Assembly (NCBI RefSeq): GCF_000204015.1
Contig: NZ_GL883080.1
Span: 247,776 to 282,038, forward strand
DNA: 34,263 nucleotides
Direction of reading: 5' to 3'
From: Asticcacaulis biprosthecium C19
Lineage (GTDB): Bacteria > Pseudomonadota > Alphaproteobacteria > Caulobacterales > Caulobacteraceae
In this document: positions 3,088 to 34,171 of the stretch, piece by piece
Layout: the number at the start of each line of letters is the position of its first letter
Numbering within the stretch: position 1 is the stretch's first letter
Notes under the pieces: model-generated
What the model was told of the DNA's origin: nothing
The model's database searches: none
The model's input: the letters and a program-made list of their open reading frames with translations, nothing else
Position numbers and translations under genes: made by a program

Positions 3088-3163
3088 GGCGATCCTTTCA
3101 ACCAAGGTGTAGACCTATATCGCCGTATAGTTGAAGTCAAAGACGATCGGAAAGCCGGTAAAA

Positions 3164-3733: not shown

Positions 3734-4594
3734 ATGATTCCGCAACAGGTATTCGATGAGTATGAGGAAGCCGTCCGCTTGCTGAAACTGCGCCGCGACA
3801 ACGCGTTGCGCCGACAGTTTCTGACCGTCACAGATCATGCGATCAAACAAGGGGCGCAAGGCGGAAGCGGTGTACTTATTGCCTTAATGTCCGCCGCGAT
3901 TGACGAACTCCCAGGCCGCTTAAACGAGATCGTCGATAAATTCGTTGCCATCCTTTTACGGGACGAGGTCGAGTTAGGTGACGCAGATGTGGCAGCGCAA
4001 ACCCAGGCGCTGACCAATCGCCTTGATAACGAGAGGCGACACGCTGCGTCCGTGTTATTCGACCTGTCCGAATTTCAGCCAAGCGCTTTCGAAAAGCGCA
4101 CCAATAATTTCCATTATTGGAAGCAATGGCGCGACTTGGCTATACCGATATATGGCGAAGTAGTCTTATCACTAAAAGGGAAACTCAAATTGGCGAGTCA
4201 AAAATTGGGGACGCCGGGACCCGGCACTGTGATCCACAACAATACGTTTCATGCCCCGGTGGGAGCGGTAATTTATGGCAACAATAATACGACTTCCATT
4301 AGTCAGTCGATAGATGGCAATGCCTTGATAGCGTTAGGAGCAGCCCTCCAGATCCTCATCGAAAAGCTGGCAGATCATGTGCCATCGTCGCCCGATGAAC
4401 AGGGTAAGATCGACGCTATCGTGGATATGGCAAATGACGCCAAAGCCGAGACGGAAAAAGCCAAGCCAAATGGGACAAAGTTGCTCTTTTTCGTTCAGGG
4501 CATCGCAGCTACTTTTACTGCAATTGCAAACGCGCCAGAAGCATATGCAGCCCTCAAGCAGGCGGCGGAACTCGTCGGTCATCCGCTGCCGTAA
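3734..4594 (+). CDS. Hypothetical helical protein with a Gly/Asn-rich beta motif
   Basis: Predicted 286 residues, ATG at 3734 with AGGGTGG 6 bases upstream. Residues 1-160 are mostly charged helices. A short insert at about residues 163-190 reads GTVIHNNTFHAPVGAVIYGN and is followed by NNTTSISQSI. It resembles the beta element NxxxxxxPVGAVxxG that I have seen before helical C-termini in many uncharacterised bacterial proteins, some near defence genes. The rest is a predicted three-helix tail ending in AALKQAAELVGHPLP. No signal peptide or membrane helix is evident, although residues 246-262 (KLLFFVQGIAATFTAIA) are moderately hydrophobic. Codon use is less G/C-biased at the third position than in the catabolic genes to the right, in keeping with an acquired segment. 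No function is assigned. Confidence 0.75.
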   Translation: MIPQQVFDEYEEAVRLLKLRRDNALRRQFLTVTDHAIKQGAQGGSGVLIALMSAAIDELPGRLNEIVDKFVAILLRDEVELGDADVAAQTQALTNRLDNERRHAASVLFDLSEFQPSAFEKRTNNFHYWKQWRDLAIPIYGEVVLSLKGKLKLASQKLGTPGPGTVIHNNTFHAPVGAVIYGNNNTTSISQSIDGNALIALGAALQILIEKLADHVPSSPDEQGKIDAIVDMANDAKAETEKAKPNGTKLLFFVQGIAATFTAIANAPEAYAALKQAAELVGHPLP

Positions 4595-9427: not shown

Positions 9428-9440
9428 GGTCATGGGCCCT

Positions 9441-12400: not shown

Positions 12401-13145
12401 TAAAGGTGAGGCGATCGCGGATCTGGTCGAAGGCGTGCAGTTCGGTCATGACGCCGGGAAGGCTGCCGGCGCGGGTGTCGAGATTGAGCGGCCAGGCGGC
12501 GCAGGCATCCAGCACGGCCTGCGCGGTGAAGTCGATCTCACTGGTGCCCGACGGCATGATGTAGGCGAGGCGCGACGGGCCGGCGATATAGGCGCGCGCC
12601 GTATCGGCCTTGCTGATCGGCAGCTTGGCGCCCGGATCGGGATTGACCGCAACACTTTCGTTGGTCTGAACGTCGGGCATGCCCTGGCCCTGAGTGTCAG
12701 GCCAGGTGCTTTCCATGATGGCCTGGGGCTGGTGCTGGACGATCATCAGCGCACGGTTGCCGTTGCGGCGGATCTTGCGGTTCTTGCCGGAACCCGAGAC
12801 ATGAGCATTGACCAGGCGGATATTGAGCACCACCAGGTCGCGCGGACGGATCAGGGTGAATTCGGTCAGGTTATCGGCCAGCCGGAAGGCCTCGGGCGAG
12901 ATGACCTGCAGGCCGTTGCCCTTTGGCACGACGATCTTGCTTGCATCCAGCACCTTGCGGGCGTCCTGACCCAGAACCGGGGCGGCGGCGCCTGCCAGCA
13001 GAAAACTGACGAGAAGTCGACGAGTAAGCCGGACCTCTTCCGCCGCAGCCTTGAGCAACGACTTGGATGTCGTTGATTTTGAAGGGGTCCTTCCGGCTTT
13101 GGCCGGTTTAGATGAGGGCGTTGCCCCCGTGTCCTTTTTGGACAT
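9441..13145 (-). CDS. Giant uncharacterised protein with Tat-like leader, first gene of the cassette
   Basis: Predicted 1234 residues from ATG 13145 (MSKKDTGATPSS); a TTG 12 bases upstream is less likely. A basic, Ser/Lys-rich leader of about 38 residues precedes LTRRLLVSFLLAGAAAPVLG, which looks like a twin-arginine signal (T-R-R-L-L) with a possible cut before QDARK. If the long leader stays inside, it would instead be an anchor. The middle contains EIPFRLHMTPLSTAGFTHAS and AELWHTRMG near residues 390-425. The C-terminal 350 residues are Gly-rich alternating beta strands (for example ISASYSLGLPDIGVGALTLQ) ending with a Cys-containing strand and DYCSAFA. I recall the same motifs in unannotated large proteins of other phyla, unverified. 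It is transcribed first, divergent from a peptidase gene. No enzyme motif is visible. Confidence 0.85.
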   Translation of the reverse strand: MSKKDTGATPSSKPAKAGRTPSKSTTSKSLLKAAAEEVRLTRRLLVSFLLAGAAAPVLGQDARKVLDASKIVVPKGNGLQVISPEAFRLADNLTEFTLIRPRDLVVLNIRLVNAHVSGSGKNRKIRRNGNRALMIVQHQPQAIMESTWPDTQGQGMPDVQTNESVAVNPDPGAKLPISKADTARAYIAGPSRLAYIMPSGTSEIDFTAQAVLDACAAWPLNLDTRAGSLPGVMTELHAFDQIRDRLTFIANQQKDALHAYPAVEALLKRAARKVAEAIASSADAGIVLSDEVIDDLIDYEIKATLAPDQMSTDEAKVLQPMKGRNGQKFKLYVNAEATKHLAQTRRGVTQTRGGLVGTVMRVEQNEDRKPLENGSVNPNATDIEIPFRLHMTPLSTAGFTHASDVVDHGSPFAELWHTRMGTRVSNWVLGDTPQPLRAVHADDGPFEGQFCLGDTFPCPTWPLDPRDRRDLVALMSAPTALNGTPRTPLPATARHLRLTALGGSMDAEGLWSDNLALDSDLVAWKHITSIGRDQFVRVIYDGFLYPFGHAASLIKVSERKFSGQSDGGRVAAVLQKYYIIVRQRLRTFPGDGQMWQGRDFPFTRVEITTQQTPDMQAPQMIEPLTAGYYGNPANAFQTFWPKRMAGGGDILFHMIFSDAAGRQTVADMPLIFISGTRNQKPTSVQQVSKYYNGNHATVTERRKLALDRQLIRLTPAVDIEGGALEPGESDYHTSELVFRATPAGGSPDGAHFYPGILSAQIEVPALKNLLGHTANPTITYHDTFLQKGLGGDNPGEVVFGFTPLAVPSVQDKPTDKFGGLLAPSLKPDGLSRKLGVLNDVGQYLAPDGKLPLDALSGMKLLGVVDIADILAPLVLGGSAPGVPQLKTVTTGTEVTTTYDLTQANVKTPTGGAGIFVSRPFSGSQANPQLRVVSTLVVAKDGGKPEATVTASLKAFKINLFGFIILNFQSLSLTVRPGSKPEVDPIFDIENGVMFGGPLEFLNGFRSFIPMDGFSDPPGLDVGPGGISASYSLGLPDIGVGALTLQNVSLGAGFDLPFNGDGPTARFNFAERHNPFNLTVSMLGGGGFFAIRVGSGGVQELEATLEFGAQVSIDLGVASGGVYVKAGFYFHWIGQPADKQMISFEGYIELGGHLSVLGLITVSLTFHLGLTYEKTSNKTRLYGTATLTVEIDILFFSCSQDISVERQFAGSDADPLFLDFVPKKQMWTDYCSAFA

Positions 13146-13360
13146 GTCTGCACCCAACCCTGTTCTACACGTTGACCATATCAGGGTTTTTCCGGTCGTC
13201 TACCCCAATTTCGAATCAAAACCCTGTCGGTGTCCTCAGCGGACACGGACGTGGCGGCGAAGCACCAAACGATTATAGCCAGCAACGAAGCCGTTGCGCC
13301 TGCGGTAACCGGGTGTACAGTGTTGCGACAAGAATGGTGGTTCAAAGACTGGAATTTCTC
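13146..13360. promoter_or_regulatory. Divergent intergenic region between giant cassette and peptidase gene
   Basis: These 215 bases separate two outward-facing transcription units and should hold both promoters. Visible structures are an inverted pair CAGGGTTTT (13182-13190) and AAAACCCTG (13218-13226), 27 bases apart, and a small hairpin GTGTCC-TCAGC-GGACAC at 13230-13246. No convincing -35/-10 pair was found on either strand, so this is only a location for regulation. Confidence 0.35.
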
Positions 13361-17080: not shown

Positions 17081-17827
17081 TCAGAATGTCGTCCGTCCAC
17101 CCGAGGTGTCGAAGGTCGAAGCCGTCGTGAATGAGCACTCTTCCGAGGCCATGAAACACACGGTCGCAGCGCTTTCATCGACGATGCCCAGACGCCCCAT
17201 CGGAATTTTTGACCGCATATACTCGACCTGGCTCGGCGGCAGTTGCGCCAGGATCGGCGACTCGAATGTCGCCGGCGTCAAAGCATTGACGATCACGCCC
17301 TTGGTCGCCAGTTCCTTGCCCAGCGACTTGGTCAGCCCGATCACGCCGGCCTTCGAGGCGGAGTAGGCCGAGGCGTTTGGATTGCCTTCCTTGCCGGCCA
17401 CCGACGCGACATTGACGATACGGCCATAGCCGTTGTCGATCAGGAACGGAATGACCTCACGGCAGCAATAGAACAGGCCGTTCAGGTTGATATCCATTAC
17501 CTTCTGCCAGGAGTCCAAAGGGAACTCCCACAACGGCACAGTGGCGCCAGTGATGCCGGCTGAATTGATCAGGATGTCGATCTTGCCGAGGATCTCGTGG
17601 CTGGACTTGGCCGCCACCGCCACCGCAGCATGGTCCGACACATCCACCGCCACGACACCGACCGCGCCGGTATCGGCCTTGGAGGTTTCCAGTGCTTCCG
17701 GATTCAAGTCCCACAGCACGACCTTGCCGCCTTCAGCGGTGATCCGTGCCGCGGCCGCCTTGCCCAGGCCCGATCCGCCGCCGGTGACAATGGCGCAGCG
17801 GCCTGAAAAACGTCCTGCATAGATCAT
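17081..17827 (-). CDS. SDR dehydrogenase, probable 2-keto-3-deoxy-L-rhamnonate 4-dehydrogenase
   Basis: Predicted 248 residues. It is a classical short-chain dehydrogenase: TGGGSGLG (15-22), acidic D40 at the end of strand 2 (favours NAD+), NSAG (88-91), catalytic S142, Y155 and K159 (YSASK). The C-terminus TFDTSGGRTTF is of the kind seen in sugar-acid dehydrogenases. In the non-phosphorylative diketo-hydrolase route the 4-hydroxyl of 2-keto-3-deoxy-L-rhamnonate is oxidised to the 2,4-diketo acid, the substrate of the next enzyme. Its start overlaps the stop of that hydrolase gene (ATGA), so this role is the best fit. The same enzymes can serve L-fucose, and the dehydratase upstream decides for rhamnose. 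It is the last gene of the operon. Confidence 0.8.
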   Translation of the reverse strand: MIYAGRFSGRCAIVTGGGSGLGKAAAARITAEGGKVVLWDLNPEALETSKADTGAVGVVAVDVSDHAAVAVAAKSSHEILGKIDILINSAGITGATVPLWEFPLDSWQKVMDINLNGLFYCCREVIPFLIDNGYGRIVNVASVAGKEGNPNASAYSASKAGVIGLTKSLGKELATKGVIVNALTPATFESPILAQLPPSQVEYMRSKIPMGRLGIVDESAATVCFMASEECSFTTASTFDTSGGRTTF

Positions 17828-18696
17828 CCTAGGATCTCCAGGCCTGTCAGCGAGAACGGCACCACGGTCTGGCGCTGCTCGCCCAGCTTCGAGACGCCCA
17901 GATGCATGGTGTCGCCGGCGTTCAGGTAGACCGGGTTGGGCTTCTTGCCTTCGCCGACACCCGGCGGGGTACCGGTGATGACCAGATCGCCCGGCTGCAG
18001 CGTGATAAAGCGCGAAATGTACGAGATGCAGTGGGCGACGTTGAAGATCAGCGTCCTGGTATTGCCCGTCTGCATCCGTTGACCGTTGACGTCCAGGAAC
18101 ATGTCCAGGTTATGGACGTCGCCGACCTCGTCCGGCGTGACCAGCCACGGGCCGGTCGGCGCGAAGGTGTCGCAGCCCTTGCCCTTGACCCATTGCGAAC
18201 CGCGCTCCTTCTGGAAGGCGCGCTCCGACACGTCATTGACCAGGACATAGCCGGCGACATGCGACAGCGCTTCGGACTTTTCGACATAGCGGCAGGTCTT
18301 GCCGATGATCAGGCCCAACTCGACTTCCCAATCCATCTTGGTGGCGTCGCGCGGCTTCATGACCTCGTCATTGGGCCCCGTCAGCGAGGTGACGGCCTTG
18401 GTGAAGAAGATTGGCTCGGGCGGGACGGGCAGGTTGGATTCAGCCGCGTGGTCGGCATAGTTCAGCCCGACGGCGATGATCTTGCCAATGTTGTTGACCG
18501 GCACGCCATAGCGCGGCGTACCCGAAACGACGGGGAGGGCGGCGATATCGAGCGCGGTCAGCTTGGCCAGTTGCGACAGACGCACCGTGTCGGGCGTCAG
18601 GTCGGAGATAATGCCCGACAGGTCGCGGATGTGGCCGTCGGAATCGACGACGCCGGGTTTTTCGGAGCCCTTAGGGCCATAGCGGCAGAGTTTCAT
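17824..18696 (-). CDS. FAH-family hydrolase, probable 2,4-diketo-3-deoxy-L-rhamnonate hydrolase
   Basis: Predicted 290 residues from ATG 18696 (MKLCRYGPKG), with AAAGGA 9 bases upstream. An upstream in-frame extension runs into the palindromic repeat and is rejected. The fumarylacetoacetate-hydrolase fold is clear: VGLNYADHAAES (His83), PIFFTKAVTSLTGPND, the metal ligands E124 and E126 in WEVELGLIIG, D155 in VNDVSERAFQ, and ITGTPPGVGEG. In this pathway the enzyme splits 2,4-diketo-3-deoxy-L-rhamnonate into pyruvate and L-lactate. The L-fuconate analogue has nearly the same sequence signature, so the sugar is assigned from the operon. It overlaps the downstream SDR gene by four bases. The 5' gap to the dehydratase gene holds a 137-bp palindromic element. 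Confidence 0.87.
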   Translation of the reverse strand: MKLCRYGPKGSEKPGVVDSDGHIRDLSGIISDLTPDTVRLSQLAKLTALDIAALPVVSGTPRYGVPVNNIGKIIAVGLNYADHAAESNLPVPPEPIFFTKAVTSLTGPNDEVMKPRDATKMDWEVELGLIIGKTCRYVEKSEALSHVAGYVLVNDVSERAFQKERGSQWVKGKGCDTFAPTGPWLVTPDEVGDVHNLDMFLDVNGQRMQTGNTRTLIFNVAHCISYISRFITLQPGDLVITGTPPGVGEGKKPNPVYLNAGDTMHLGVSKLGEQRQTVVPFSLTGLEILG

Positions 18697-18750
18697 GGTC
18701 TTTGGTCCTTTGGATTTACCACGGACCACACGGCCTTTAGAAATAGCCTG

Positions 18751-18887
18751 GAACCGCCGCGCAGCGGCATCTGCTGAAAAGGGCATCCACAGATTACACA
18801 GATTACACAGATTAGGTTGAGCTTTAATCTGTGTAATCTGTGTAATCTGTGGAACTCTTAAAGATGCAGCCGCTACGCGGCGGGTTC
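18751..18887. repeat. Nested palindromic element, copy 1 (137 bp)
   Basis: The outer arms GAACCGCCGCGCAGCGGCATC (18751-18771) and a near-complementary copy (18863-18887) enclose a second, perfect inverted repeat: 28-base arms at 18787-18814 and 18825-18852 with a 10-base loop. Each inner arm is made of three tandem ACAGATTAC-type words. It lies in the middle of the rhamnonate operon. A second copy lies at 27358-27511. Confidence 0.9.
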
Positions 18888-18925
18888 AGATACGTCTCGA
18901 AGTCCGCGTGGTCCGTTGTGAAAAA

Positions 18926-20125
18926 TTAATGCGTATAGGGTCGGTACAGCTTGACGTCCGGATTGAGCTCAACCCCAAAGCCCGGCTTGTCCAGCGCCGA
19001 GACGTTCAGGCGGCCATTGACCGGCACAGGCTCACCCAGAAGCTGCGGATGGAACATCGGCGCGACGTGGTCGGCCTTGGGCGCCATCATCAGGAACTCG
19101 GCGAACGGCGAATTGTGACGCGTTATGACGAAGTGATACGAATAGACTGACGAGCCGTGCGGTACGACCATGATGCCGCGGGCATCCGCCATCGCCGAAA
19201 TCTTCAGCAGTTCCGTCACCCCGCCGCACCAGCCGACATCGGGCTGGATCAGGTCGCAGCAGTCCATTTCCATCAACATTCGGAAACCCCAGCGGGTGGC
19301 TTCGTGCTCACCGGTGGTGACCAGCATGCCAGCAGGGACATTCTTCTTGAGTTGGGCATAGCCCCAATAATCGTCCGGCGAAATGGCTTCCTCGATCCAC
19401 TTCAAACCGTGCGGCGCGCAGGCGTGCGCCAGCCGGGTGGCGTAGTTGACGTCCAGTGCCATCCAGCAGTCGTACATCAGCCAGAAGTCGTCACCGCACT
19501 TGGCGCGCATGTCGGCCAGAAGTTCGACATTCTTCTTCAGGCCCTCATCGCCCTCGATCGGACCGTGTAATAACGGAAGTTTGCCGCCAATAAAGCCCAT
19601 TTCCTTGGCCAAGTCCGGACGCGCACCCGTCGCGTAAAACTGCAACTCATTGCGCACGGCGCCGCCCAGCATATGATAGACGGGTTCACCGCGCAGGCGC
19701 CCCATCAGGTCCCACAAGGCCAGGTCGACGCCGGAAATGGCGTTCACCACAATGCCCTTGCGGCCATAATACTGTGACGCGAAATACATCTGGTCCCAGA
19801 TCGTCTCGTAATCGAACGGATCGCGGCCTTCCAGGAAACGGGCAAAGTGCTTTTCAACCATATAGGCTGCCGGCTCGCCGCCGGTGGTGACGGCGAATCC
19901 CGTCGTGCCGTCTTCGCACTCGATCTCGACGACCAGCGTTCCCAAAACGTTGATGCCGAAGGACTTGCGACTCTGGCGATATTCCGGATAGCGTCCCATC
20001 GAGGTGGCGATATGGTTGTCGATCCAATGGCCTTCGCCCTGGTCATGGTAGTCGGCACCGCCGCCGCCTTCGCCCCCCTTGATCACAGATGCGCGAATTT
20101 GCTTGATTTTAGAATGTTTTGACAT
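18926..20125 (-). CDS. rhmD: L-rhamnonate dehydratase (enolase superfamily)
   Basis: Predicted 399 residues from ATG 20125 ([11 protein letters not shown]), with GGTGAG just upstream. The enzyme removes water from L-rhamnonate to give 2-keto-3-deoxy-L-rhamnonate. The mandelate-racemase-type active site is complete: metal ligands D219 (MYDCWM), E245 (WIEEAISP) and E273 ([11 protein letters not shown]), with D296 (QPDVGWCGG) and catalytic H323 ([11 protein letters not shown]). The 26- and 28-residue spacings of the three ligands match what I recall for the E. coli enzyme. The N-terminal region [18 protein letters not shown] is specific to rhamnonate dehydratases. Cytoplasmic, Mg2+-dependent. 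First gene of the minus operon, divergent from the IclR regulator gene across 75 bases. Confidence 0.93.
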
Positions 20126-20137
20126 AGTCTCACCATT

Positions 20138-20176
20138 TGGGACATATCTCTGGGATTCGGCATTGTTTTTGTCCCA
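20138..20176. promoter_or_regulatory. Candidate IclR operator in the divergent rhmD-iclR promoter region
   Basis: The 75 bases between the two start codons contain TGGGACA (20138-20144) and its exact inverted copy TGTCCCA (20170-20176), 32 bases centre to centre, about three helical turns. This fits paired binding of a dimeric or tetrameric regulator between divergent genes. A core promoter could not be fixed on either strand. Confidence 0.5.
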
Positions 20177-20200
20177 CAATTTGCATATGAGTTCTAAAGA

Positions 20201-21010
20201 ATGAAACCAGCAGCGTCAACGGAGAATTTGCCTGAGGTCAGCGAGCCGAAGACGCTCGCCGGTGCGCAAACCCTTGTCCGCGGTCTCGACGTGCTGATGG
20301 CTGTTGCCGACAGCGGCAAGAACCTGCCGGAACTGTCCGAAGCCCTGGGCCTGACCCGATCCACCACCCACCGCCTGGCCACCACCCTTGTCGAACAGCG
20401 CTTCCTCAACTTTACGCCACGGGTCGGCTACAGCCTGGGGCCGCGTCTGCTGGAACTGGGCTATCTCGCCTCGCGCCAGATGAACCTGGCCCGCGTCGCC
20501 CATGACGACCTGGTCAACCTGGCCAAACAGACCGGCGACACCGTCCATCTCGGCATTCTCGACAATGGCCGCGCCCTGTATCTCGACAAGGTCCTGGGCA
20601 CCCGCCGCATCGAGATCAGCTCGCGTATCGGTGAACGCCAGCCCCTGCGCTCGACCGGCATCGGCAAGGCGCTGTTGCTGGACGAACCCGAGAGCGCCTT
20701 ACGCGACCTCTATGCCCGCGAAAGCCGTGATTTTCCGGGTTATCGCGTCTCGGAAGGCGACTGGCTGGAGCGCATGAAAAGCTACAGCCAATCCGGCTAC
20801 GCGCTGGATCTGGAAGAAAACGAAGACCGGATCCGTTGCGTTGCCGCGCCGATCCGTGATGCCGCCAATCGTATCATCGGCTCGATCAGCGTGTCGTCGG
20901 CGGCGCAATATATGGACGATGCGCGCATGAAGGCGCTGACTCAGGACGTTCTGGCCACGGTGCGCGCCATCTCCGCCGAATTCGGCTGGAGCGAAAAACA
21001 CTTAAAATAA
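20201..21010 (+). CDS. IclR family transcriptional regulator of the rhamnose genes
   Basis: Predicted 269 residues, ATG 20201. The N-terminal winged helix-turn-helix covers about residues 20-85 ([20 protein letters not shown], then [20 protein letters not shown]). The C-terminal IclR effector domain follows, with [21 protein letters not shown], the characteristic [11 protein letters not shown], and [20 protein letters not shown]. Neighbours on both sides encode L-rhamnose oxidation enzymes, so the inducer is probably rhamnose, rhamnonate or a keto-deoxy derivative; this is inference. A five-codon open frame (20187-20204, ATG AGT TCT AAA GAA TGA) ends across the start codon and could couple translation, but there is no clear ribosome site for either. 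The dehydrogenase gene follows after 12 bases and is probably co-transcribed. Confidence 0.9.
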
Positions 21011-21022
21011 TGGGGAAGCGAC

Positions 21023-21784
21023 ATGCTTTTGGAAGGACAAAAGGTTCTGATCACGGGGGCATCGCGCGGTATCGGCCGGGCGACGGCGATCATGTGCGCC
21101 CGCCACGGCGCTGATGTTGGCCTGAACGTCTATAAAGACCCGGACGCCACCGCCGACGTCGTTGCCGAAATCGAAGCGCTGGGCCGCAAGGCCTTTGTCT
21201 ATGACGGCGACGTCGCCGATGCGACCTCCGCTCCGGCCTTCGTCAAGGGCGCGGCCGCGGCCCTGGGCGGGGTGACGGCCTTCGTGTCCAATGCCGGCAT
21301 CTGCCCCTTCCACAGCTTCCTCGACATGCCGCAGGACGTGTTCCTGCGTACCCTGAACGTCAACTATACCGGCGCCTACTATATGTGCCAGGCGGCGGCA
21401 AACCAGATGGTTGAACAGGGGGGAGGCGGTTCGATCATCGCCGTATCGTCGATCTCGGCCCTGGTCGGCGGTGAAATGCAGACGCACTACACCCCGACCA
21501 AGGCTGGCGTGCATTCGCTGATGCAGTCGACGGCGATTGCGCTGGGCCGTTACGGCATTCGCTGCAACTCGGTCATGCCGGGCACAGTCGCGACCGACAT
21601 CAACAAGGACGACCTGGCCGATCCGGCCAAGCGCGAATACATGGAAAAGCGCATCCCCCTCGGCCGCATGGGCCATCCCGACGATATCGCCAAGGTGGTG
21701 GTCTTCCTGGCCTCGGACCTGAGCAGCTATGTCACCGGCGCCTCGGTCCTCACCGACGGCGGGATGTTCGTGAACCTGCAGTAA
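21023..21784 (+). CDS. L-rhamnose 1-dehydrogenase (SDR)
   Basis: Predicted 253 residues, ATG 21023 with GGGGAAG upstream. It has classical SDR features: TGASRGIG (11-18), SNAG (89-92), catalytic Ser at 142/143 (AVSSISA), Y156 and K160 in HYTPTKAG. The stretch THYTPTKAGVHSLMQS, then IRCNSVMPGTVATDINKDDL, and the ending GGMFVNLQ are those I associate with NAD(P)+-dependent L-rhamnose 1-dehydrogenases of Azotobacter and Sphingomonas (LRA1 type). It oxidises L-rhamnose to rhamnono-lactone, the first step of the non-phosphorylative route. No lactonase gene lies in the window, so the lactone must open spontaneously or be handled by an enzyme encoded elsewhere. The strand-2 end is NVYKDP, not acidic at the usual place, so NADP+ may also be accepted. 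Confidence 0.9.
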   Translation: MLLEGQKVLITGASRGIGRATAIMCARHGADVGLNVYKDPDATADVVAEIEALGRKAFVYDGDVADATSAPAFVKGAAAALGGVTAFVSNAGICPFHSFLDMPQDVFLRTLNVNYTGAYYMCQAAANQMVEQGGGGSIIAVSSISALVGGEMQTHYTPTKAGVHSLMQSTAIALGRYGIRCNSVMPGTVATDINKDDLADPAKREYMEKRIPLGRMGHPDDIAKVVVFLASDLSSYVTGASVLTDGGMFVNLQ

Positions 21785-27522: not shown

Positions 27523-27876
27523 TTACGCCTGCTCGGCCAAACTATAGATGCGTTCCATCTCCAGCCAGGTCGAGCCCTCCGGTCCGAACGGCAGAGGCTT
27601 CTGGAACGTCCGCATCAGCGCATCCCACGCCGCAACATCCGGATTATCGCCATCCCGCTCAGCCTTTGCCGAAGGATCGAAATCCAGCCCCTGTTCCATG
27701 ATCAACACCATGCGGTCCCCGACCTGCCAGATCTCCAACTCGCGGATATCATCCGCCCGGATAGCCGCCGTCACCGCAACCGGCACGGCCCCGGCCGCAT
27801 GCCACGCCTTATACCGTTCAATCCGGTCGCCATCGTCGTAAATATCGACGGCATAGACCTTGCGTACCGTCGTCAT
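27523..27876 (-). CDS. L-rhamnose mutarotase-like protein (RhaM family)
   Basis: Predicted 117 residues, about the size of RhaM-type dimeric ferredoxin-like proteins. Family features are a leading strand with Tyr (KVYAVDIYDDGDRIERYKAWH), a central helix and strands with IRELEIWQVGDRMVLIMEQ, and the trailing WDALMRTFQKPLPF. The enzyme interconverts alpha and beta anomers of L-rhamnose, helping the dehydrogenase or an epimerase receive the right form. The usual RRH triad of RhaM is altered (YKAWHAAG), so a different sugar, such as L-fucose, is possible. Its ATG overlaps the stop of the lacI gene (ATGA), so the two are translationally coupled. Confidence 0.8.
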   Translation of the reverse strand: MTTVRKVYAVDIYDDGDRIERYKAWHAAGAVPVAVTAAIRADDIRELEIWQVGDRMVLIMEQGLDFDPSAKAERDGDNPDVAAWDALMRTFQKPLPFGPEGSTWLEMERIYSLAEQA

Positions 27877-28892
27877 TCGGGAATATTTTCCTTGAAAACA
27901 GCCTGGATGCGGATCGGGATAAACGGCTTCAGCGCTTCACCGCGAACGATCTGCGCCAGTTGATCGATCGCCTCGCGCGCCTCGACTCGCGGATTCTGGT
28001 CGATCACGGCATCTATCACCCCTGACAGCAAAAGCCGCCGCGTATGTTCGGTCAGCTCATGGCCGATGAAGACGATCTTGCGCGCCATGCCGGTCTCTTC
28101 CAGAGCCTTGGCGATACCGCGATTGCCGGCGCCGATATTGTAGATCCCGGCCAGTTCCGGATATTGCCGCAGCAACAACCGGCATTCCTCATAGGCGCGC
28201 TCGTCATTGTCCTGGACCTCGCGCAGTTCGACAATCGACAGACCGGGATAGTCCTCGCGCAGGATGTGCCGAAAACCCATCTCGCGCTCTTCATGGCCGC
28301 GATAGGACAGCGACCCGGCAAACAGAGCCAGCTTAGCCGGCCCCTTGGGCAGCAATCGCCCCAGCAGATAACCGCTCAGCCGGCCGGCGGCGCGGTTGTC
28401 GATACCGATATAGGATTCCCGCGGTACGTTGGAAATGTCGGAAATCAGGGTGACCACATGGGTGCCGGCATTGCGCACCTGACGCAGCGCTTCACGGACC
28501 AGCGGATGGTCCAAAGCAATCACCCCGACGCCGCGCGATTTCCCGGCCAGCTTCAGCAGGGTGTCGGCCAGCGCATAGGGATCGAAGCCCTGGATGAAGT
28601 GCAGCCGCAATTCGATATCGCCGCGGTCGGCAGCGACCTCTTCCAGCGCGGTGGCTAGGTTCTGCATGAAGCTGTTGCTGCCGCTGGGCAGCAGGAAGTC
28701 GAGTGCCACCGGCGCCCGGCTGATCCCGGTATCGGGCGATTGAGCGATGTAACCGAGCTTGGTGGCGGTCTGGAAGACGATGTCGCGGGTGCGGTCGCGC
28801 ACGCCGGGGCGGCGGTTCAACACACGATCGACCGTGGCGGTCGACACACCGGCCTGGCGGGCGATGTCGATCAGGGTGGCGCGATCGGCCAA
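27873..28892 (-). CDS. LacI family transcriptional regulator
   Basis: Predicted 339 residues. The start is TTG 28892 with GGAGGAG 6 bases upstream; no ATG is available near. The N-terminal helix-turn-helix is classic: ATLIDIARQAGVSTATVDRV with hinge region LNRRPGVRD. The rest is a periplasmic-binding-protein-like sensor domain of the RbsR type, with LDFLLPSGSNSFMQNLATAL, ESYIGIDNRAAGRLSGYLLG and AVIDQNPRVEAREAIDQL. It is divergent from the five-gene epimerase/CoA operon across 296 bases and coupled to the mutarotase gene, so it probably controls both directions. The effector is unknown, but a sugar is expected for this family. Its own promoter carries a 16-bp imperfect palindrome, suggesting autoregulation. 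Confidence 0.9.
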   Translation of the reverse strand: MADRATLIDIARQAGVSTATVDRVLNRRPGVRDRTRDIVFQTATKLGYIAQSPDTGISRAPVALDFLLPSGSNSFMQNLATALEEVAADRGDIELRLHFIQGFDPYALADTLLKLAGKSRGVGVIALDHPLVREALRQVRNAGTHVVTLISDISNVPRESYIGIDNRAAGRLSGYLLGRLLPKGPAKLALFAGSLSYRGHEEREMGFRHILREDYPGLSIVELREVQDNDERAYEECRLLLRQYPELAGIYNIGAGNRGIAKALEETGMARKIVFIGHELTEHTRRLLLSGVIDAVIDQNPRVEAREAIDQLAQIVRGEALKPFIPIRIQAVFKENIPE

Positions 28893-28939
28893 GTCGGTCT
28901 CCTCCGGGAGGTTCGCGCCGCTTCTGATGTAGCGCTGTT

Positions 28940-28977
28940 ATGCATCAAAATACATCGCGTCGCCGGCACTGTGTCAA
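28940..28977 (-). promoter_or_regulatory. lacI promoter with palindrome over the -10 box
   Basis: On the minus strand a consensus TTGACA (+ strand 28972-28977), a 17-base spacer and TGTATT (28949-28954) face the lacI start. The palindrome ATGCATCAAAATACAT (28940-28955, one mismatched pair) covers the -10 box, a plausible autoregulatory operator. Confidence 0.6.
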
Positions 28978-29097
28978 GCGGATTTATCGTGGTCGATCGG
29001 GGTGGCGGGCGCGCAGGTCCGGCTGTAAAAATGCTAACCATCGAAAAAATAATGACAAAATGCCAAGTCTCGGAGTCCATCACTAAAAATTACACGT

Positions 29098-29143
29098 ATG
29101 ATGTATGATGATCTGTTGACATCATCATCGATGCGTCTATGAC
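29098..29143 (+). promoter_or_regulatory. Promoter and candidate operators of the epimerase/CoA operon
   Basis: TTGACA (29116-29121) and TATGAC (29138-29143) are 16 bases apart and point at the gene starting at 29189. Inverted arms TGATGAT (29106-29112) and ATCATCA (29121-29127) bracket the -35 box. ATGATGTATGATG at 29098-29110 shares a 12-base word with the GH2 promoter. Together these suggest a common repressor. Confidence 0.6.
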
Positions 29144-29188
29144 TCTTAGCCAGCAAAAATATAAGCCGACAGGGACTTCGGAAATTAC

Positions 29189-30367
29189 ATGGCGCAGTTG
29201 TATCAACGCAGCTATACGCGTCGCGAACTGGCGGCCCACACCGGCCAACTCTCTCAGTTCGCCGGCGTCCGTCTGATGACCCTGGACGACGGGGTTGAAC
29301 GCGGCGTGCGCATGCTGGAATTCCGCACCGGCAGCGGCCTGCGCTTCACCGTCATGGTCGACCGCGCCATGGACATTGCCGATTGCGAACACAATGGCCG
29401 CGCCGTCGGCTGGCATTCGCCATCGGGTTTCCAAAACCCGGCCCTGCATCAATACGAAGGCGAGGGCGGTCTGGCCTGGTTCCGTGCCATGTCGGGCCTG
29501 ATCGTCACCTGCGGCCTCGACCACATTCTGTTCATGGACGAAGACGACGCCACCCAATACAACTACGGTCCCAAAAAGACGGTGAAGTCGTCGCTGCACG
29601 GCCGCGTCTGCACCATTCCCGCCCGCCTGACCGGCTACGGCGAAAGCTGGGACGGCGACCAATGCACCCTGTGGGCCGAAGGCATCGTGGCGCAGTCGAC
29701 CGTCTTCGGCGAGGACCTGCACCTGATCCGCCGCATCGAAGCCACCGTCGGCGGCGACGATATTCGCCTGACCGATCGCGTGATGAATCACGGCTTCTAC
29801 CGAACGCCGCACATGTACTGCTATCACATCAATGTCGGCCACCCGATCCTGGCCGAAGGGGCGCGCTACGTCGCCCCGATCAAGGACGTCGTCTGGGCCG
29901 CCCATGCCGGCGACGACTACCAAAAGCAAAATGTCGGCTATCGCACAATGCCGGCGCCGCAGATGAACTTCGACGAACAGGTCTGGCAACACGACATGGC
30001 GCCGGACGCTGACGGCAAGGTCAAGGTCGCCCTGGTTAACGACGCCATCGGCTTTGGCTTCGCGGTCGAGACGTTGAAATCGCAGTTCCCTGCCATGTAC
30101 GAATGGCAAAACCTCCAGGCCGGCCATTATGCCTTGGGCATCGAGCCCTCCACCAACCATGTTTACGGCAAACAATTCGCCCGCGAACGCGACGAACTGA
30201 TCTGGCTCGAACACGGCGACGAGCGCCGCTACGACACCACCCTGCGCATCCTCCCTGATGCCGAAGCCGTCCGCGCCTATTGCTCCCGCATAGCGGACGT
30301 CACACCTGCGCCGGAGGTGGACTATCCGGTCCCCTCCGGTCTTTTTCCCAAGATCGTCAGGGACTGA
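29189..30367 (+). CDS. DUF4432 family aldose 1-epimerase-like protein
   Basis: Predicted 392 residues, ATG 29189. It has the galactose-mutarotase-like beta-sandwich pattern of the DUF4432 family: RGVRMLEFRTGSGLRFTVMV, DRAMDIADCEHNGRAVGW, FRAMSGLIVTCGLDHI, LHGRVCTIPARLTGYGE, and near the end MYEWQNLQAGHYALGIEPST with NHVYGK. The family binds sugars, and some members have been proposed to epimerise or isomerise sugars or keto sugars; function here is not known. It is the first gene of the operon, and the SDR gene starts 5 bases after its stop. No signal peptide, so it acts in the cytoplasm. As the first step after uptake it could present the right anomer of the sugar to the dehydrogenase. Confidence 0.88.
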   Translation: MAQLYQRSYTRRELAAHTGQLSQFAGVRLMTLDDGVERGVRMLEFRTGSGLRFTVMVDRAMDIADCEHNGRAVGWHSPSGFQNPALHQYEGEGGLAWFRAMSGLIVTCGLDHILFMDEDDATQYNYGPKKTVKSSLHGRVCTIPARLTGYGESWDGDQCTLWAEGIVAQSTVFGEDLHLIRRIEATVGGDDIRLTDRVMNHGFYRTPHMYCYHINVGHPILAEGARYVAPIKDVVWAAHAGDDYQKQNVGYRTMPAPQMNFDEQVWQHDMAPDADGKVKVALVNDAIGFGFAVETLKSQFPAMYEWQNLQAGHYALGIEPSTNHVYGKQFARERDELIWLEHGDERRYDTTLRILPDAEAVRAYCSRIADVTPAPEVDYPVPSGLFPKIVRD

Positions 30368-30372
30368 CCCAT

Positions 30373-31119
30373 ATGCACGGCAAGACCATTCTTTATACCG
30401 GCGCGGCCGGCGGGCTAGGGCTCCAGACCACCTTACGGTTCCTCGAACGCGGCGCCACGGTGGTAGCGGTGGACCATGACGACGCCAAGATGGCCGCCCT
30501 GACCTCCGCCGCCGCCCCGATCACCAATGGCCGCCTGGTGCTGCTGCACAGTGACATGTCGGATCTCGACGGTTTCCGCGCCGGCCTGAAGCAAAAGCTG
30601 GAAGAAACCGGCGGCTTCGACGTCGTCATCAACAACGCCGCCATCTACCCGTCGAAACCGTTCGAAGGCTACACGGTCGAAGAGCATCAATTGGTCCAAC
30701 GGGTCAATGTCGACGCCGGCATCGTCGCGGTCCAGGAAGCCTTGCCCGGCATGAAGGCGCGCGGTTTCGGCCGTATCGTCAATGTCGCTTCGGTCACCGT
30801 CTACGGCGGCTGGGCCCTGCTGTCGCCCTACGTCGCCTCGAAGGGCGCCCTGGTCGGACTGACCCGGGCCTGGGCGCGCGAATTCGGCGTCTACGGCATC
30901 ACAGTCAATGCCATATCACCCGGCGCCTTTCCGACCGACGCCGAAAAGATCCATCCCGATCCTGACGGCTACACAAAGTTCGTCCTCGACCATCAGGCGG
31001 TCAAACGTCGTGGCCATGTCGGCGACATCGCCAATGCGATCGCCTTCCTCGCCTCCGAAGACACAGGTTTCATCACCGGCCAGACGCTGAATGTCGATGG
31101 CGGCTGGGTCATGCATTAA
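30373..31119 (+). CDS. SDR family dehydrogenase
   Basis: Predicted 248 residues, ATG 30373; longer in-frame starts would overlap the previous gene deeply. Motifs: TGAAGGLG (9-16), acidic D34 after strand 2 (NAD+ preference), NNAA (87-90), S140, Y153 and K157 (SPYVASKGA), and the ending GQTLNVDGGWVMH. The family oxidises secondary alcohols, including sugar C1 or C3 hydroxyls. In this operon, between an epimerase-like protein and a CoA-transferase, the natural role is oxidation of a sugar to a lactone or a keto sugar. It is only a distant relative of the two other SDRs in the window, so a different substrate position or sugar is likely. Confidence 0.88.
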   Translation: MHGKTILYTGAAGGLGLQTTLRFLERGATVVAVDHDDAKMAALTSAAAPITNGRLVLLHSDMSDLDGFRAGLKQKLEETGGFDVVINNAAIYPSKPFEGYTVEEHQLVQRVNVDAGIVAVQEALPGMKARGFGRIVNVASVTVYGGWALLSPYVASKGALVGLTRAWAREFGVYGITVNAISPGAFPTDAEKIHPDPDGYTKFVLDHQAVKRRGHVGDIANAIAFLASEDTGFITGQTLNVDGGWVMH

Positions 31120-31138
31120 CCCCCTGAAAAAACACACC

Positions 31139-32344
31139 ATGTCCATCCTCAAAGGTATTCGCGTCCTCGACTGCTCCATCGCCATGGCCGGGCCGTTTGC
31201 TGCCCAGCGCCTGGGTGACATGGGGGCTGACGTCATCAAGGTCGAGCCCGTCACCGGCGAGTGGCAACGCCACGCCCCGGCCGGCGGCGCCTGGGGCAAG
31301 GAGATTAACGTCTCCTTCCTGTCGTTGAACCGCAACAAACGCTCCCTGGCTGTCGATCTGAAAGCGCCCGAAGGCAAGGCGCTGCTGCTGGAACTGGTCA
31401 AGACCGCCGACGTCTTCCTGCAAAACTACCGCCCCGGCGTCGCGGCGCGCCTCGGTGTCGATTATGAAACCCTGTCGGCGATCAATCCGCGCCTGATCTA
31501 TGTCTCCATGTCGGGCTATGGCGAAGATGGCCCGTACAAGAACTATCCCGGCCAGGACCTGCTGCTGCAATCCATGTCCGGCGCCATGATGTCAGCCGGC
31601 CGCGCCGGTGAGCCGCCGTCGCCGGCGGGCCAATACCTGGTCGACGCCATCACCGCCTATTCGGCCTTCGAAGGCGCCCTGGCAGCCCTGTTCCATCGCG
31701 AACGGACGGGTGAGGGGCAAAAGGTCGAAGTTAACATGCTCGACGCCATAACCACCATCCAGATGCAGGAACTGTCGGTCTTCACGGTCGGCCATAAGCC
31801 TCAGGCGCGTTCGGCCGAACCGCACGCCCACTGCTATATCCGCGCGCCCTACGGCGTCTTCCGCACCAAGGATTCCTACCTGACCATTGCCATGGCGCCG
31901 CTGAAGCTGTTGGGCGAATTGCTGGGCGATCCCTTCTTCGAAAACCTGCAGGACCAGACCGATTCCTGGACCTACCGCGACGAAATCTACGCCCGCACCC
32001 AGGCCGGCCTGATGGCCAAAACCACCGACGAATGGCTGGCCCTGTTCCGCGCCGTCGATATCTGGGCCGGCCCGGTCTATGGTTACGAAGACCTGGTCAA
32101 CGACCCCCAGATCGCCCACAACGGTACCTTTGTCGAATACGACCACCCGACCGAAGGCCGGGTCAAGGTGCCGGGCTTTCCGATCAAATTCTCCAAAACC
32201 CCGTCGACGATCGAACGCGGCGCCCCGCGCATCGGCGAACACAGCCGCGAAGTCCTCAAAAGCCTTGGCAAGAGCGATGCCGAGATCGATGCCCTGCTGA
32301 GCAGCGGTGCCATCCGTCAGGCGCCTGAACTGCAACATGCTTAA
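31139..32344 (+). CDS. CaiB/BaiF family CoA-transferase
   Basis: Predicted 401 residues, ATG 31139 (MSILKGIRVLDCSIAMAGPF), 19 bases after the SDR stop. Class III CoA-transferase signature: GDMGADVIKVEPVTGE, NRNKRSLAVDLKAPEGK, DVFLQNYRPGVAARLGVDYE, SMSGYGEDGPYKNYPGQDLL, in which D140 matches the catalytic aspartate of formyl-CoA transferase, and the C-terminal GAPRIGEHSREVLKSLG. It moves CoA between carboxylic acids, or from a CoA donor to the pathway acid. Such a protein is unusual in sugar catabolism. Here it would activate the acid made by the SDR before the enoyl-CoA hydratase homologue acts. The donor and acceptor cannot be read from sequence. Confidence 0.92.
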   Translation: MSILKGIRVLDCSIAMAGPFAAQRLGDMGADVIKVEPVTGEWQRHAPAGGAWGKEINVSFLSLNRNKRSLAVDLKAPEGKALLLELVKTADVFLQNYRPGVAARLGVDYETLSAINPRLIYVSMSGYGEDGPYKNYPGQDLLLQSMSGAMMSAGRAGEPPSPAGQYLVDAITAYSAFEGALAALFHRERTGEGQKVEVNMLDAITTIQMQELSVFTVGHKPQARSAEPHAHCYIRAPYGVFRTKDSYLTIAMAPLKLLGELLGDPFFENLQDQTDSWTYRDEIYARTQAGLMAKTTDEWLALFRAVDIWAGPVYGYEDLVNDPQIAHNGTFVEYDHPTEGRVKVPGFPIKFSKTPSTIERGAPRIGEHSREVLKSLGKSDAEIDALLSSGAIRQAPELQHA

Positions 32345-33404
32345 GGGCTCCGCCTTCAGAGGCCTGACCTGGGATCACCCGCGCGGCTTCAACGCGCTGG
32401 ACGCGGCGTCCAAACGCCTCGACCTGACCTGGGACAAACACAGCCTGGAAGGGTTCGAAACCCACCCCATCGCCGACCTGTGCGCCCGCTATGACCTGGT
32501 CGTGCTGGACCACCCCCATGTCGGCGAAGCGGTCGCCGCCGACTGCCTGCGCCCGCTCGAAGATATTTTCACGGCCGACGACATCGCCACCTGGTCGCGC
32601 GACTGCATCGGGCCGTCCCTGGCCAGCTACCACTTTGCCGGCCGCCACTGGGCGCTGCCGCTGGACGCCGCGACCCAGGTCATGGCCTGCCGCAGCGATA
32701 TCGATACAGTTCCAGTAAATTGGAAGGATGTCCTGGCCGCCCCGTCACTGGTCATGTCGCTGTCCGGGCCGCATGCCGCCCTGACGTTTCAGTCGATCTG
32801 CGCCAGCCTCGGCGACCGTTGCGGCGGCGACACCTTCGTCACCCGCGACACCGGCGAGGAAGCCTTCGACCTGCTGGCGCAACTGACCGCCAACAGCCCC
32901 GAAAAACTGCGCGATTCCAATCCGATCGCCATCCTGCAATATCTCTGCGACCACGACGACGTCGCCCTGTGTCCGCTGGTCTACGGCTATGTCAACTACG
33001 CCCCGCGCCTGCGTTTCGCCAATGCGCCTTCCGGCCCTGCCGGCATTGGCAGCACCTTGGGCGGGACGGGAATTGGCATTTCCAAAAAATGCGAACTGAC
33101 ACCGGACCTGCTGGACCACCTGCGCTGGCTGATGTCGCCCAATACGCAGATCGACTTCATTCCGGCTCATGATGGCCAACCCTCTCTGCGCGCCGCCTGG
33201 CTTGACGGCGGCGTCAACGCCCGCTGGGGCGCCTTCTACCGCAACACCTTCAATACCCTGGAAGCCGCCTATGTCCGTCCGCGCCATGACGGCGCCATTC
33301 GTTTCCAAACCGCCGCTTCGCAGCGCCTGCGCGATGCCCTCTATGACGGCACCACGCGCAACCTGATCGACGACCTGAACGCCCTGTACGAGGCCACCCA
33401 ATGA
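32337..33404 (+). CDS. Solute-binding-protein-like protein without signal peptide
   Basis: Predicted 355 residues, ATG 32337 overlapping the CoA-transferase stop by 8 bases. The layout follows family 1 extracellular sugar-binding proteins of ABC transporters: FNALDAASKRLDLTWDKHSL (first lobe), YDLVVLDHPHVGEAVAADCL, RPLEDIFTADDI, HWALPLDAATQVMACRSDI, and late FYRNTFNTLEAAYVRPRHDG. But the N-terminus MLKGSAFRGLTWDHPRGFNA has no signal peptide or lipobox, and no permease or ATPase gene is near. The protein should stay in the cytoplasm. It may bind a pathway intermediate, act as a scaffold with the CoA enzymes, or have become an enzyme. Its 3' end overlaps the next gene (ATGA), so it belongs to the pathway. 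Confidence 0.8.
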   Translation: MLKGSAFRGLTWDHPRGFNALDAASKRLDLTWDKHSLEGFETHPIADLCARYDLVVLDHPHVGEAVAADCLRPLEDIFTADDIATWSRDCIGPSLASYHFAGRHWALPLDAATQVMACRSDIDTVPVNWKDVLAAPSLVMSLSGPHAALTFQSICASLGDRCGGDTFVTRDTGEEAFDLLAQLTANSPEKLRDSNPIAILQYLCDHDDVALCPLVYGYVNYAPRLRFANAPSGPAGIGSTLGGTGIGISKKCELTPDLLDHLRWLMSPNTQIDFIPAHDGQPSLRAAWLDGGVNARWGAFYRNTFNTLEAAYVRPRHDGAIRFQTAASQRLRDALYDGTTRNLIDDLNALYEATQ

Positions 33405-34171
33405 CAGATGAACTCCTGTTCGAAGTGGACGGCCATATCGCCGTCATCACCATCAACCGCCCGGCCAAGTTGAATGCGATGACGCCGGACATGGCACACG
33501 CCCTGGAACACGCGATCGCGCAGTGTAATGCCTCGGACACCATCCGCTGCATCATCGTGACGGGGGCAGGGGAGCGCGCCTTCTGCGCCGGCTCGGATAT
33601 CCGCATCTTGGACGACTACGAAACCCCGTGGCAGTTCCGTAACCGCGACGACTATTGCGACGCCATCCGCCTGTGCCAGAAGCCGACCATTGCCGCAGTC
33701 AACGGCTATGCCTTCGGCGGCGGACTGGAGACGGCGATGTCGTGCGATATCCGCATCGCCTCGAACAACGCCCAATTCGCCGCGCCGGAAATCAAGCTGG
33801 GCTGGATCGGTGGCGGCGGCATGGCGGCAGGCCTCGTCCATTCGCTCGGGGGGGCCAATGCGGCCCTGATGATCCTGACCGGCGATCCGATTTCGGCGCA
33901 TAAGGCCGAGCAATGGGGCCTGGTCTCCGAAGTCACTGAAGTGGCCGATTTGATGCCGCGCGCCCGTGCGATTGCGCAAACCATTGCCTCCCGCGCCCCG
34001 ATCGCCGCCGAAACCGGTAAGTTGAACCTGCGAGCCGCCCACACCATGCCGTATGAAAAAGCCGTGGAATACGAGCGCGACCTGCAAACCATCTGTTTCG
34101 CCACTGAAGACGCCCGCGAAGGCCGCGCCGCCTTCAAGGAAAAGCGTGCACCGGTGTTCAAGAGACGCTAG
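33401..34171 (+). CDS. Enoyl-CoA hydratase/isomerase family protein (crotonase fold)
   Basis: Predicted 256 residues, ATG 33401 overlapping the previous stop (ATGA). Crotonase motifs: IAVITINRPAKLNAMTPDM, the oxyanion-hole stretch GAGERAFCAGSDI, NGYAFGGGLETAMSCDIRIA and APEIKLGWIGGGG. E110 and E130 stand at the places of the two catalytic glutamates of enoyl-CoA hydratase (20 residues apart, as in the mammalian enzyme), so hydration or dehydration is likely rather than a divergent crotonase reaction. It would act on the acyl-CoA made by the CoA-transferase, for example removing water from a polyhydroxy-acyl-CoA. It is the last gene of the operon in view; a hairpin follows 29 bases later. Confidence 0.92.
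   Translation: MTDELLFEVDGHIAVITINRPAKLNAMTPDMAHALEHAIAQCNASDTIRCIIVTGAGERAFCAGSDIRILDDYETPWQFRNRDDYCDAIRLCQKPTIAAVNGYAFGGGLETAMSCDIRIASNNAQFAAPEIKLGWIGGGGMAAGLVHSLGGANAALMILTGDPISAHKAEQWGLVSEVTEVADLMPRARAIAQTIASRAPIAAETGKLNLRAAHTMPYEKAVEYERDLQTICFATEDAREGRAAFKEKRAPVFKRR

Follow-up and report, generated by a model that had tools for sequence, protein, structure and literature searches.

An operon that sets enzymes of acyl-CoA metabolism among proteins resembling sugar enzymes raises an obvious question: what would coenzyme A (CoA) contribute to the breakdown of a sugar? Such an arrangement is found near one end of a 34,263-nucleotide stretch of the Asticcacaulis biprosthecium C19 genome (contig NZ_GL883080.1, positions 247,776 to 282,038; hereafter 'the window'), where five consecutive genes encode a DUF4432 (aldose-1-epimerase-like) protein, a classical short-chain dehydrogenase/reductase (SDR), a class III CoA-transferase of the CaiB/BaiF family ('CaiB'), an apparently cytosolic homologue of solute-binding proteins ('SBPc') and a protein of the crotonase/enoyl-CoA hydratase family. 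An original prediction, made from these letters alone, had proposed a CoA-dependent pathway for a sugar acid. The comparative analysis described below upholds that proposal in outline, on the strength of a recurrent sugar context and of 12 related loci that have no conventional sugar-acid dehydratase, whereas it lends no such support to the order of the steps, which we infer. We consider it slightly better than an even chance (a probability of about 0.52) that the operon degrades a sugar, probably an aldose of the pentose type derived from a plant glycan, via the CoA ester of its sugar acid, with dehydration accompanied by an exchange of CoA. More broadly, the five genes appear, from sequence comparison, to belong to a large and conserved family of clusters, apparently not described before, that carry a CoA module and are for the most part sugar-catabolic.

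Conservation and sugar context of the block

As the most specific gene of the operon, SBPc was chosen as the probe for related loci, and at least 580 stretches encoding a relative were found; the locus counts given below refer to the best 80 of these, a selection that leans towards close relatives, and the family labels in their gene maps were assigned by resemblance to reference proteins and partly by eye. CaiB, SBPc and the crotonase are contiguous in 76 of the 80 loci (CaiB adjoins SBPc in at least that number), and the complete five-gene order, for which the original prediction had suggested a search across genomes, recurs in 43. DUF4432 and the SDR both lie within the locus in 58 cases and are both absent from 14, and homologues of LacI1 and of rhaM are present in 14 and 21 loci, respectively. 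The loci are spread over Pseudomonadota and Actinomycetota (32 named genera) and Acidobacteria bins, and the crotonases of 24 further selected loci (Acidobacteria, Actinomycetota and Proteobacteria) share 63-93% identity with the window protein. Departures from the usual arrangement include a locus with MaoC instead of the crotonase (L052), two rhizobial loci in which no CaiB stands between the SDR and SBPc (L062 and L072; each genome encodes, at another place, a CaiB with 86-87% identity to the L036 protein), and one distant, rearranged locus (L105).

Within a sample of 299 Caulobacteraceae genomes, SBPc was found in 11. When 29 of these genomes (including 18 of the 288 SBPc-negative ones) were examined for DUF4432 (PF14486), the family was present in 10 of the 11 SBPc-positive genomes and in none of the 18 negative ones (Fisher p 5e-7, uncorrected for relatedness), each time about 3 kb from SBPc; the single positive genome without it (G035) encodes a distant SBPc of 34% identity. 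Given this co-occurrence, and the conservation of the locus, a chance grouping of the five genes can be ruled out.

A phylum-wide sample of 398 genomes contained an SBPc relative in 18, the genome of the window included, and 20 of the 22 listed places (all save the window and G348:C17) were fetched. Every one of these 20 regions has a CaiB, and every one has either a crotonase or a MaoC; in L160 and L161, CaiB lies several genes away. Most are clusters of sugar genes, in which rhaM, Gfo/Idh, enolase-type dehydratase, lactonase or ABC genes occur; L164 is a plainer region in which thiolase is matched weakly (70 bits). The crotonase and MaoC folds are unrelated but share (de)hydratase chemistry, and their interchange thus supports a hydration or dehydration step. 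On a Persicobacter plasmid (Bacteroidota; L026, 7883-17336), two CaiB-SBPc pairs follow one another, accompanied by RhaT, Gfo/Idh, SDR and MaoC.

Sugar uptake genes (by their assigned labels) are present in 64 of the 80 loci, with sugar ABC transporters travelling with the block, and a similar sugar context is seen on annotated plasmids of Sinorhizobium, Pseudosulfitobacter, Streptomyces and Variovorax. A Gfo/Idh/MocA oxidoreductase together with a sugar-isomerase-like TIM barrel (SPI) is encoded in 23 loci, and GH28-, GH78-, GH2- or beta-helix proteins in 28; none of the 23 Gfo-SPI loci has any of the four glycan-degrading families tested. Genes for a D-2-hydroxyacid dehydrogenase (2HAD) and a glycerate-kinase-like protein (GLYK) occur with glycan-degrading genes in 25 of 25 cases and in none of the 23 Gfo-SPI loci, and may serve a different sugar in the glycan. 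PDB look-ups of the sugar isomerase and of the sugar-uptake binding protein indicated no particular sugar. Split transketolase genes and a TIM-barrel sugar isomerase lie near the block in L041, L053, L069, L070, L076 and L080 (5' part), an arrangement that we take to be reminiscent of the apiose transketolase route.

When searched with reference proteins, the 80 loci contained no acyl-CoA dehydrogenase and no thiolase; an AMP ligase was found in one (L088, 131 bits) and a ring-hydroxylating dioxygenase in one other (L108, 144 bits), counts on which a fatty-acid or aromatic setting was rejected. The combination that the original prediction had named as refuting it, in which the CoA genes stand among fatty-acid or aromatic genes and without the DUF4432/SDR pair, thus did not turn out to refute it, and 10 of the 14 loci that have neither member of that pair carry other sugar genes.

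Active sites, the absent dehydratase and a proposed route

The residues of the SDR, the transferase and the crotonase that we take to be catalytic had been described as intact, and the alignments bear this out. N112, S140, Y153 and K157 of the SDR are present in all 68 aligned members; D185 of CaiB, presumably the catalytic aspartate by its motif, is found in 93 of 95, the remaining two being gaps; and E110 and E130 of the crotonase, which lie 20 residues apart and which we take to correspond to E144 and E164 of the rat enzyme, are found in all 88, a likeness to the two-glutamate enoyl-CoA hydratases that is shared by the five solved crotonases in the alignment. For rat enoyl-CoA hydratase, one report names E144 and Q162 (PMC9007349); the position of Q162 is occupied by alanine in 86 of the 88 crotonases of the present set. 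A polar loop (GSDIxxLDxYxTxWxFRNR) is conserved in 25 aligned crotonase sequences and was not seen in the five solved structures. Among proteins of known structure, the nearest to the SDR is pyridoxal 4-dehydrogenase (3ndr, 4e-40) and the nearest to CaiB is succinate-hydroxymethylglutarate CoA-transferase (8e-64), and the DUF4432 protein matches a 'hypothetical aldose 1-epimerase' (3ty1, 1.2e-34); none of the five operon proteins reaches any family cut-off in NCBIfam.

What the CoA enzymes might do is suggested by the genes that accompany them in other species. An FAH-family protein is encoded in 40 of the 80 loci, directly after the crotonase in 24; that of L083 matches 2-keto-3-deoxy-D-arabinonate dehydratase (PDB 2q18, 1.8e-20) and, as a separate entry, PDB 9kkt (5e-120), and an FAH-superfamily protein of Herbaspirillum huttiense (COG3970) converts 2-keto-3-deoxypentonate to alpha-ketoglutaric semialdehyde (PMC6336799). 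In 12 of the 80 loci the FAH protein occurs together with an aldehyde dehydrogenase, an inventory that, with the SDR, recalls the Weimberg (oxidative, non-phosphorylative) pentose pathway. In contrast to that pathway, none of these 12 loci encodes an IlvD- or enolase-type sugar-acid dehydratase (with the references tested, and up to 10 kb on each side), and CaiB, SBPc and the crotonase stand in its place. Because a conventional sugar-acid dehydratase is missing from all 12, the simplest reading is that these three proteins carry out the dehydration.

In the route that we infer, the DUF4432 protein and/or the rhaM-type mutarotase would supply the right anomer of the sugar, and the SDR would oxidise it to a lactone or acid. 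CaiB, with SBPc acting as a substrate-specificity partner, would then move CoA onto the sugar acid, and the crotonase would eliminate water from the 2,3-dihydroxyacyl-CoA to give an enol and, from it, a 2-keto-3-deoxyacyl-CoA. By passing the CoA to the next sugar acid, CaiB would dispense with a CoA ligase beyond priming, and the breakdown of the freed 2-keto-3-deoxy acid would be completed by two enzymes of the kind encoded beside the block in other species, a semialdehyde dehydrogenase and, before it, a 2-keto-3-deoxypentonate dehydratase.

An exchange of CoA between product and substrate is the logic of CaiB and CaiD in carnitine metabolism, and CoA would cycle here in the same way. The carnitine system likewise has the gene for a class III CoA-transferase near that for a crotonase-type dehydratase, and includes neither a thiolase nor an acyl-CoA dehydrogenase. 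It differs in that the present block is surrounded by sugar genes and has SBPc between CaiB and the crotonase, and in that a CaiC-like acyl-CoA ligase accompanies the carnitine genes, whereas the only counterpart here is the AMP-ligase match in a single locus.

SBPc is the most constant partner of CaiB and not a stray transporter part. Its score against Pfam SBP_bac_8 is 25.7 bits (the family cut-off being 27), and its profile finds sugar-binding proteins in the PDB, the best of them a trehalose/maltose-binding protein (1eu8, 1.7e-16). The motif TW[DSN]HPRG, which has no match in two of the 80 loci, begins at residue 6-20 in the other 78 and thus leaves no space for the usual signal peptide, and the median N-terminal hydropathy of SBPc is 1.03, where three sets of ordinary binding proteins have medians of 2.1-2.3, the ranges overlapping; no export signal of the kind expected in a transport-type binding protein is apparent. 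The position of the motif, the N-terminal hydropathy and the Pfam score below cut-off together led us to reject an ordinary ABC binding protein, and SBPc seems, as far as its sequence goes, to have stayed inside the cell. The SBPc of Asticcacaulis sp. AC460 (L029), the closest named locus among the matches listed, is 88% identical to that of the window. In L005 (1492-3384), SBPc and the crotonase share a single open frame of 630 amino acids, which may represent a natural fusion or a sequencing error.

Counter-evidence, rival readings and precedents

A number of observations weigh against the dehydration route as set out above. The aldehyde dehydrogenase of L036 is nearest to alpha-ketoglutaric semialdehyde dehydrogenase but, at 554 bits, stays short of the cut-off (770), and that of L051 matches the same family weakly (80 bits). 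An enolase-type dehydratase is encoded near the block in 22 of the 80 loci (possibly for another sugar), several distant clusters hold a sugar-acid dehydratase along with MaoC and CaiB (the CoA module may act later in the pathway there), and 26 loci have neither FAH nor 2HAD/GLYK. The window operon itself, again unlike the Weimberg pathway, has no FAH and leads into genes for a hydroxyacid dehydrogenase, a glycerate-kinase-like protein and LldD, which weigh against the route because degradation via 2-keto-3-deoxypentonate needs none of them; the sole match to the block's FAH found in its own genome (56% identity) lies in a region (L111; C2:1836000-1855000) read as a xylose Weimberg-type cluster with FAH, SDR, lactonase-like and IlvD/Edd-like dehydratase genes. 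Four loci without DUF4432 and the SDR (L060, L089, L095 and L097) have few or no sugar genes. Among plasmid-borne relatives, a distant one (L023) is adjoined by thiolase, AMP ligase and ring dioxygenase genes, as well as by sugar genes, another (L025) has MaoC-CaiB-SBPc followed by an AMP ligase, and pSymB of Sinorhizobium meliloti carries a bare CaiB-SBPc pair (L022, 7832-10119), with no hydratase or catabolic sugar gene adjoining and with conjugation and amino-acid genes as neighbours.

The alternative that survives best, although we regard it as unlikely, holds that the CoA module acts on a later and smaller acid (such as a mesaconate-like acid or a C4-C5 dicarboxylate), with the SDR and DUF4432 forming a CoA-free upper half of the pathway. 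Pairs of succinyl-CoA:mesaconate transferase and MaoC exist, and both the nearest relatives of CaiB (succinate-glutarate and succinate-hydroxymethylglutarate CoA-transferases) and the sugar-acid dehydratases of the distant clusters are consistent with such a role. However, the 12 loci that encode FAH plus an aldehyde dehydrogenase would then be left with no tested dehydratase for the sugar acid, and the polar loop of the crotonase, together with the relative of sugar-binding proteins beside CaiB, suggests a polyhydroxy substrate.

Somewhat less probable still is a CoA-dependent cleavage, in which CaiB would make an aldonyl-CoA and the crotonase, as a C-C lyase or hydrolase, would split it into glycolyl-CoA and a shorter aldehyde or acid, whether by a retro-aldol reaction or by a retro-Claisen reaction after oxidation at C3; glycolyl-CoA would serve as the next CoA donor, and glycerate would pass to the glycerate-kinase-like enzyme. 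Crotonase-fold lyases and hydrolases exist, the Asticcacaulis and sphingomonad operons continue into glyoxylate/hydroxypyruvate-reductase-like, glycerate-kinase-like and LldD proteins, and a proposed deoxyribonate route ends in glyceryl-CoA and a glycerate kinase (PMC6365646), all of which favour this reading. Against this stand the retention of both hydratase glutamates in all 88 crotonases, the replacement of the crotonase by a member of a hydratase family (MaoC), the 24 loci with FAH directly after the crotonase, which point to a 2-keto-3-deoxy acid, and the strict association of the 2HAD/GLYK genes with glycan-degrading genes rather than with the Gfo-SPI loci, by which they may serve another sugar. 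Finally, it is highly improbable that the CoA enzymes act on an aromatic acid, phenylpropanoid or other, released from a plant glycoside, as the original prediction had offered in the alternative: alpha-L-rhamnosidase and GH2 proteins nearby in the window, GH28-like proteins in relatives and the mixed surroundings of L023 favour the idea, but the near-absence of dioxygenase, CoA ligase and thiolase genes from the 80 loci speaks against it, as do the 23 Gfo-SPI loci, which, having none of the four glycan-degrading families, make the block independent of glycoside breakdown.

If the preferred reading, dehydration of a sugar acid as its CoA ester, is set beside what is described, the assertion of the original prediction that known sugar-acid routes use no CoA esters proves too strong. 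A route via CoA-bound deoxyribonate (deoxyribonyl-CoA), with a glycerate kinase at its end, has been proposed for Klebsiella michiganensis (PMC6365646), and it is the single proposed precedent for CoA-bound sugar-acid intermediates that was found. That report describes, as would apply here, a sugar acid carried as a CoA ester and a terminal glycerate kinase; unlike the present loci, with a ligase in one of 80 and a thiolase in none, the Klebsiella route relies on a CoA synthetase, a hydroxyacyl-CoA dehydrogenase and a thiolase. A paper on S. meliloti mentions an enoyl-CoA hydratase and a CoA transferase, the transferases being of the glutaconate type (PMC8407117). A literature search, whose coverage excluded most subscription journals, returned no paper that treats CaiB together with SBPc or DUF4432 in the breakdown of sugars.

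A wider generalisation, which is tentative and on balance rather doubtful, is that CaiB, with SBPc as a cytosolic CoA-transferase subunit, and a crotonase or MaoC form a new biochemical module that replaces the metal-dependent sugar-acid dehydratases in one class of sugar-catabolic clusters, found in Pseudomonadota, Actinomycetota, Acidobacteriota and at least one Bacteroidota plasmid, with catalytic CoA exchange as the means of degrading sugars. If true, the activation of acids as thioesters, familiar from fatty and aromatic acids, would serve at a central point of sugar breakdown, and what was a transport protein would have become part of an enzyme system. A function would also be provided for the many genes (at least 580 SBPc stretches) now annotated in plant-associated bacteria as CoA transferase, enoyl-CoA hydratase or extracellular solute-binding protein, as well as for DUF4432. 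Strains suitable for testing exist in Asticcacaulis, Azospirillum brasilense and S. meliloti.

Operon layout and neighbouring genes

All five genes of the operon have open frames and run in one direction, as had been described from the sequence, with gaps of 5 bases (DUF4432 to SDR) and 19 bases (SDR to CaiB) and overlaps of 8 bases (CaiB and SBPc) and 4 bases (SBPc and crotonase). The LacI-type regulator and the mutarotase gene that had been reported to face the operon were both recovered by Pfam. Beyond the crotonase gene the operon continues on the same contig and strand with three further genes (see the table), of which the second encodes a P-loop kinase that we take, by its motifs, to be a D-glycerate 3-kinase; this protein has a weak MeaB match and nothing else in Pfam, and no match in NCBIfam.

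Positions of the operon, its flanking genes and two enzymes of the neighbouring L-rhamnose cluster (window coordinates, or coordinates of L110 for genes beyond the end of the window)
Feature	Position	Strand	Length	Family match or proposed role
rhaM-family sugar mutarotase	27523..27876	-		PF05336, 3.4e-16
LacI-type regulator	27873..28892	- (divergent from operon)		Pfam LacI and Peripla_BP_4
Divergent intergenic region	28893..29188	.	296 bases	Candidate promoter and putative inverted repeat
DUF4432 (aldose-1-epimerase-like) protein	29189..30367	+	392 aa	PF14486, 1.4e-96; proposed sugar mutarotase
Classical SDR dehydrogenase	30373..31119	+	248 aa	Pfam, 3e-51; proposed sugar 1-dehydrogenase
Class III CoA-transferase, CaiB/BaiF family (CaiB)	31139..32344	+	401 aa	PF02515 CoA_transf_3, 4.6e-109
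SBPc, solute-binding-protein-like, apparently cytosolic	32337..33404	+	355 aa	Proposed substrate-binding partner of CaiB
Crotonase/enoyl-CoA hydratase family protein	33401..34171	+	256 aa	PF00378 ECH_1, 1.1e-60
D-2-hydroxyacid dehydrogenase (2HAD)	L110:7245-8213	Same as operon		On the contig beyond the window end
P-loop kinase, glycerate-kinase-like (GLYK)	L110:8210-8998	Same as operon		
LldD-like protein	L110:8995-10146	Same as operon		
2,4-didehydro-3-deoxy-L-rhamnonate hydrolase	17824-18786			NCBIfam, 539 bits (cut-off 500)
L-rhamnonate dehydratase	18926-20179			NCBIfam, 743 bits (cut-off 393)

The divergent intergenic region contains a candidate promoter, read from an alignment (TTGACA at 29116-29121 and TATGAC at 29138-29143, with a 16-base spacer), and an inverted repeat with 7-base arms (TGATGAT-8-ATCATCA, 29106-29127); in the alignment, a core block of this region is shared with L029 and L030, and in part with L031. 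A consensus promoter scan did not list the TTGACA/TATGAC pair and gave promoters no more numerous than in shuffled sequence, and an Rfam search of the window returned no match.

Adjoining the operon (17081-21784) is a cluster for the L-rhamnose diketo-hydrolase (LRA) pathway, comprising two SDRs, an IclR regulator, a dehydratase and a hydrolase, and followed by a GH2-like protein (by its likeness to the GH2 protein of L083) and an alpha-L-rhamnosidase. The LRA pathway also uses SDR and FAH-superfamily enzymes, and differs in that it comes with an L-rhamnonate dehydratase and a diketo-hydrolase of its own and involves no CoA gene. With this dedicated dehydratase and hydrolase at hand, the operon can be ruled out as the L-rhamnose route, and its substrate is probably not L-rhamnose; since L-rhamnose has a route of its own, the operon likely serves another sugar of the same glycan.

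Elsewhere in the window, two adjacent and very large open reading frames of 1437 and 1238 amino acids lie on the reverse strand (5177-13157), the second with a signal-like N-terminus by eye; neither has a Pfam match at 0.001. Also on the reverse strand (1753-3105) is the gene for a 450-amino-acid protein with a C-terminal Swt1-like HEPN domain (PF18731), near which lie two proteins without a match in the Pfam search (530-1693 and 3734-4594); this region could be a locus of the defence or toxin-antitoxin type.

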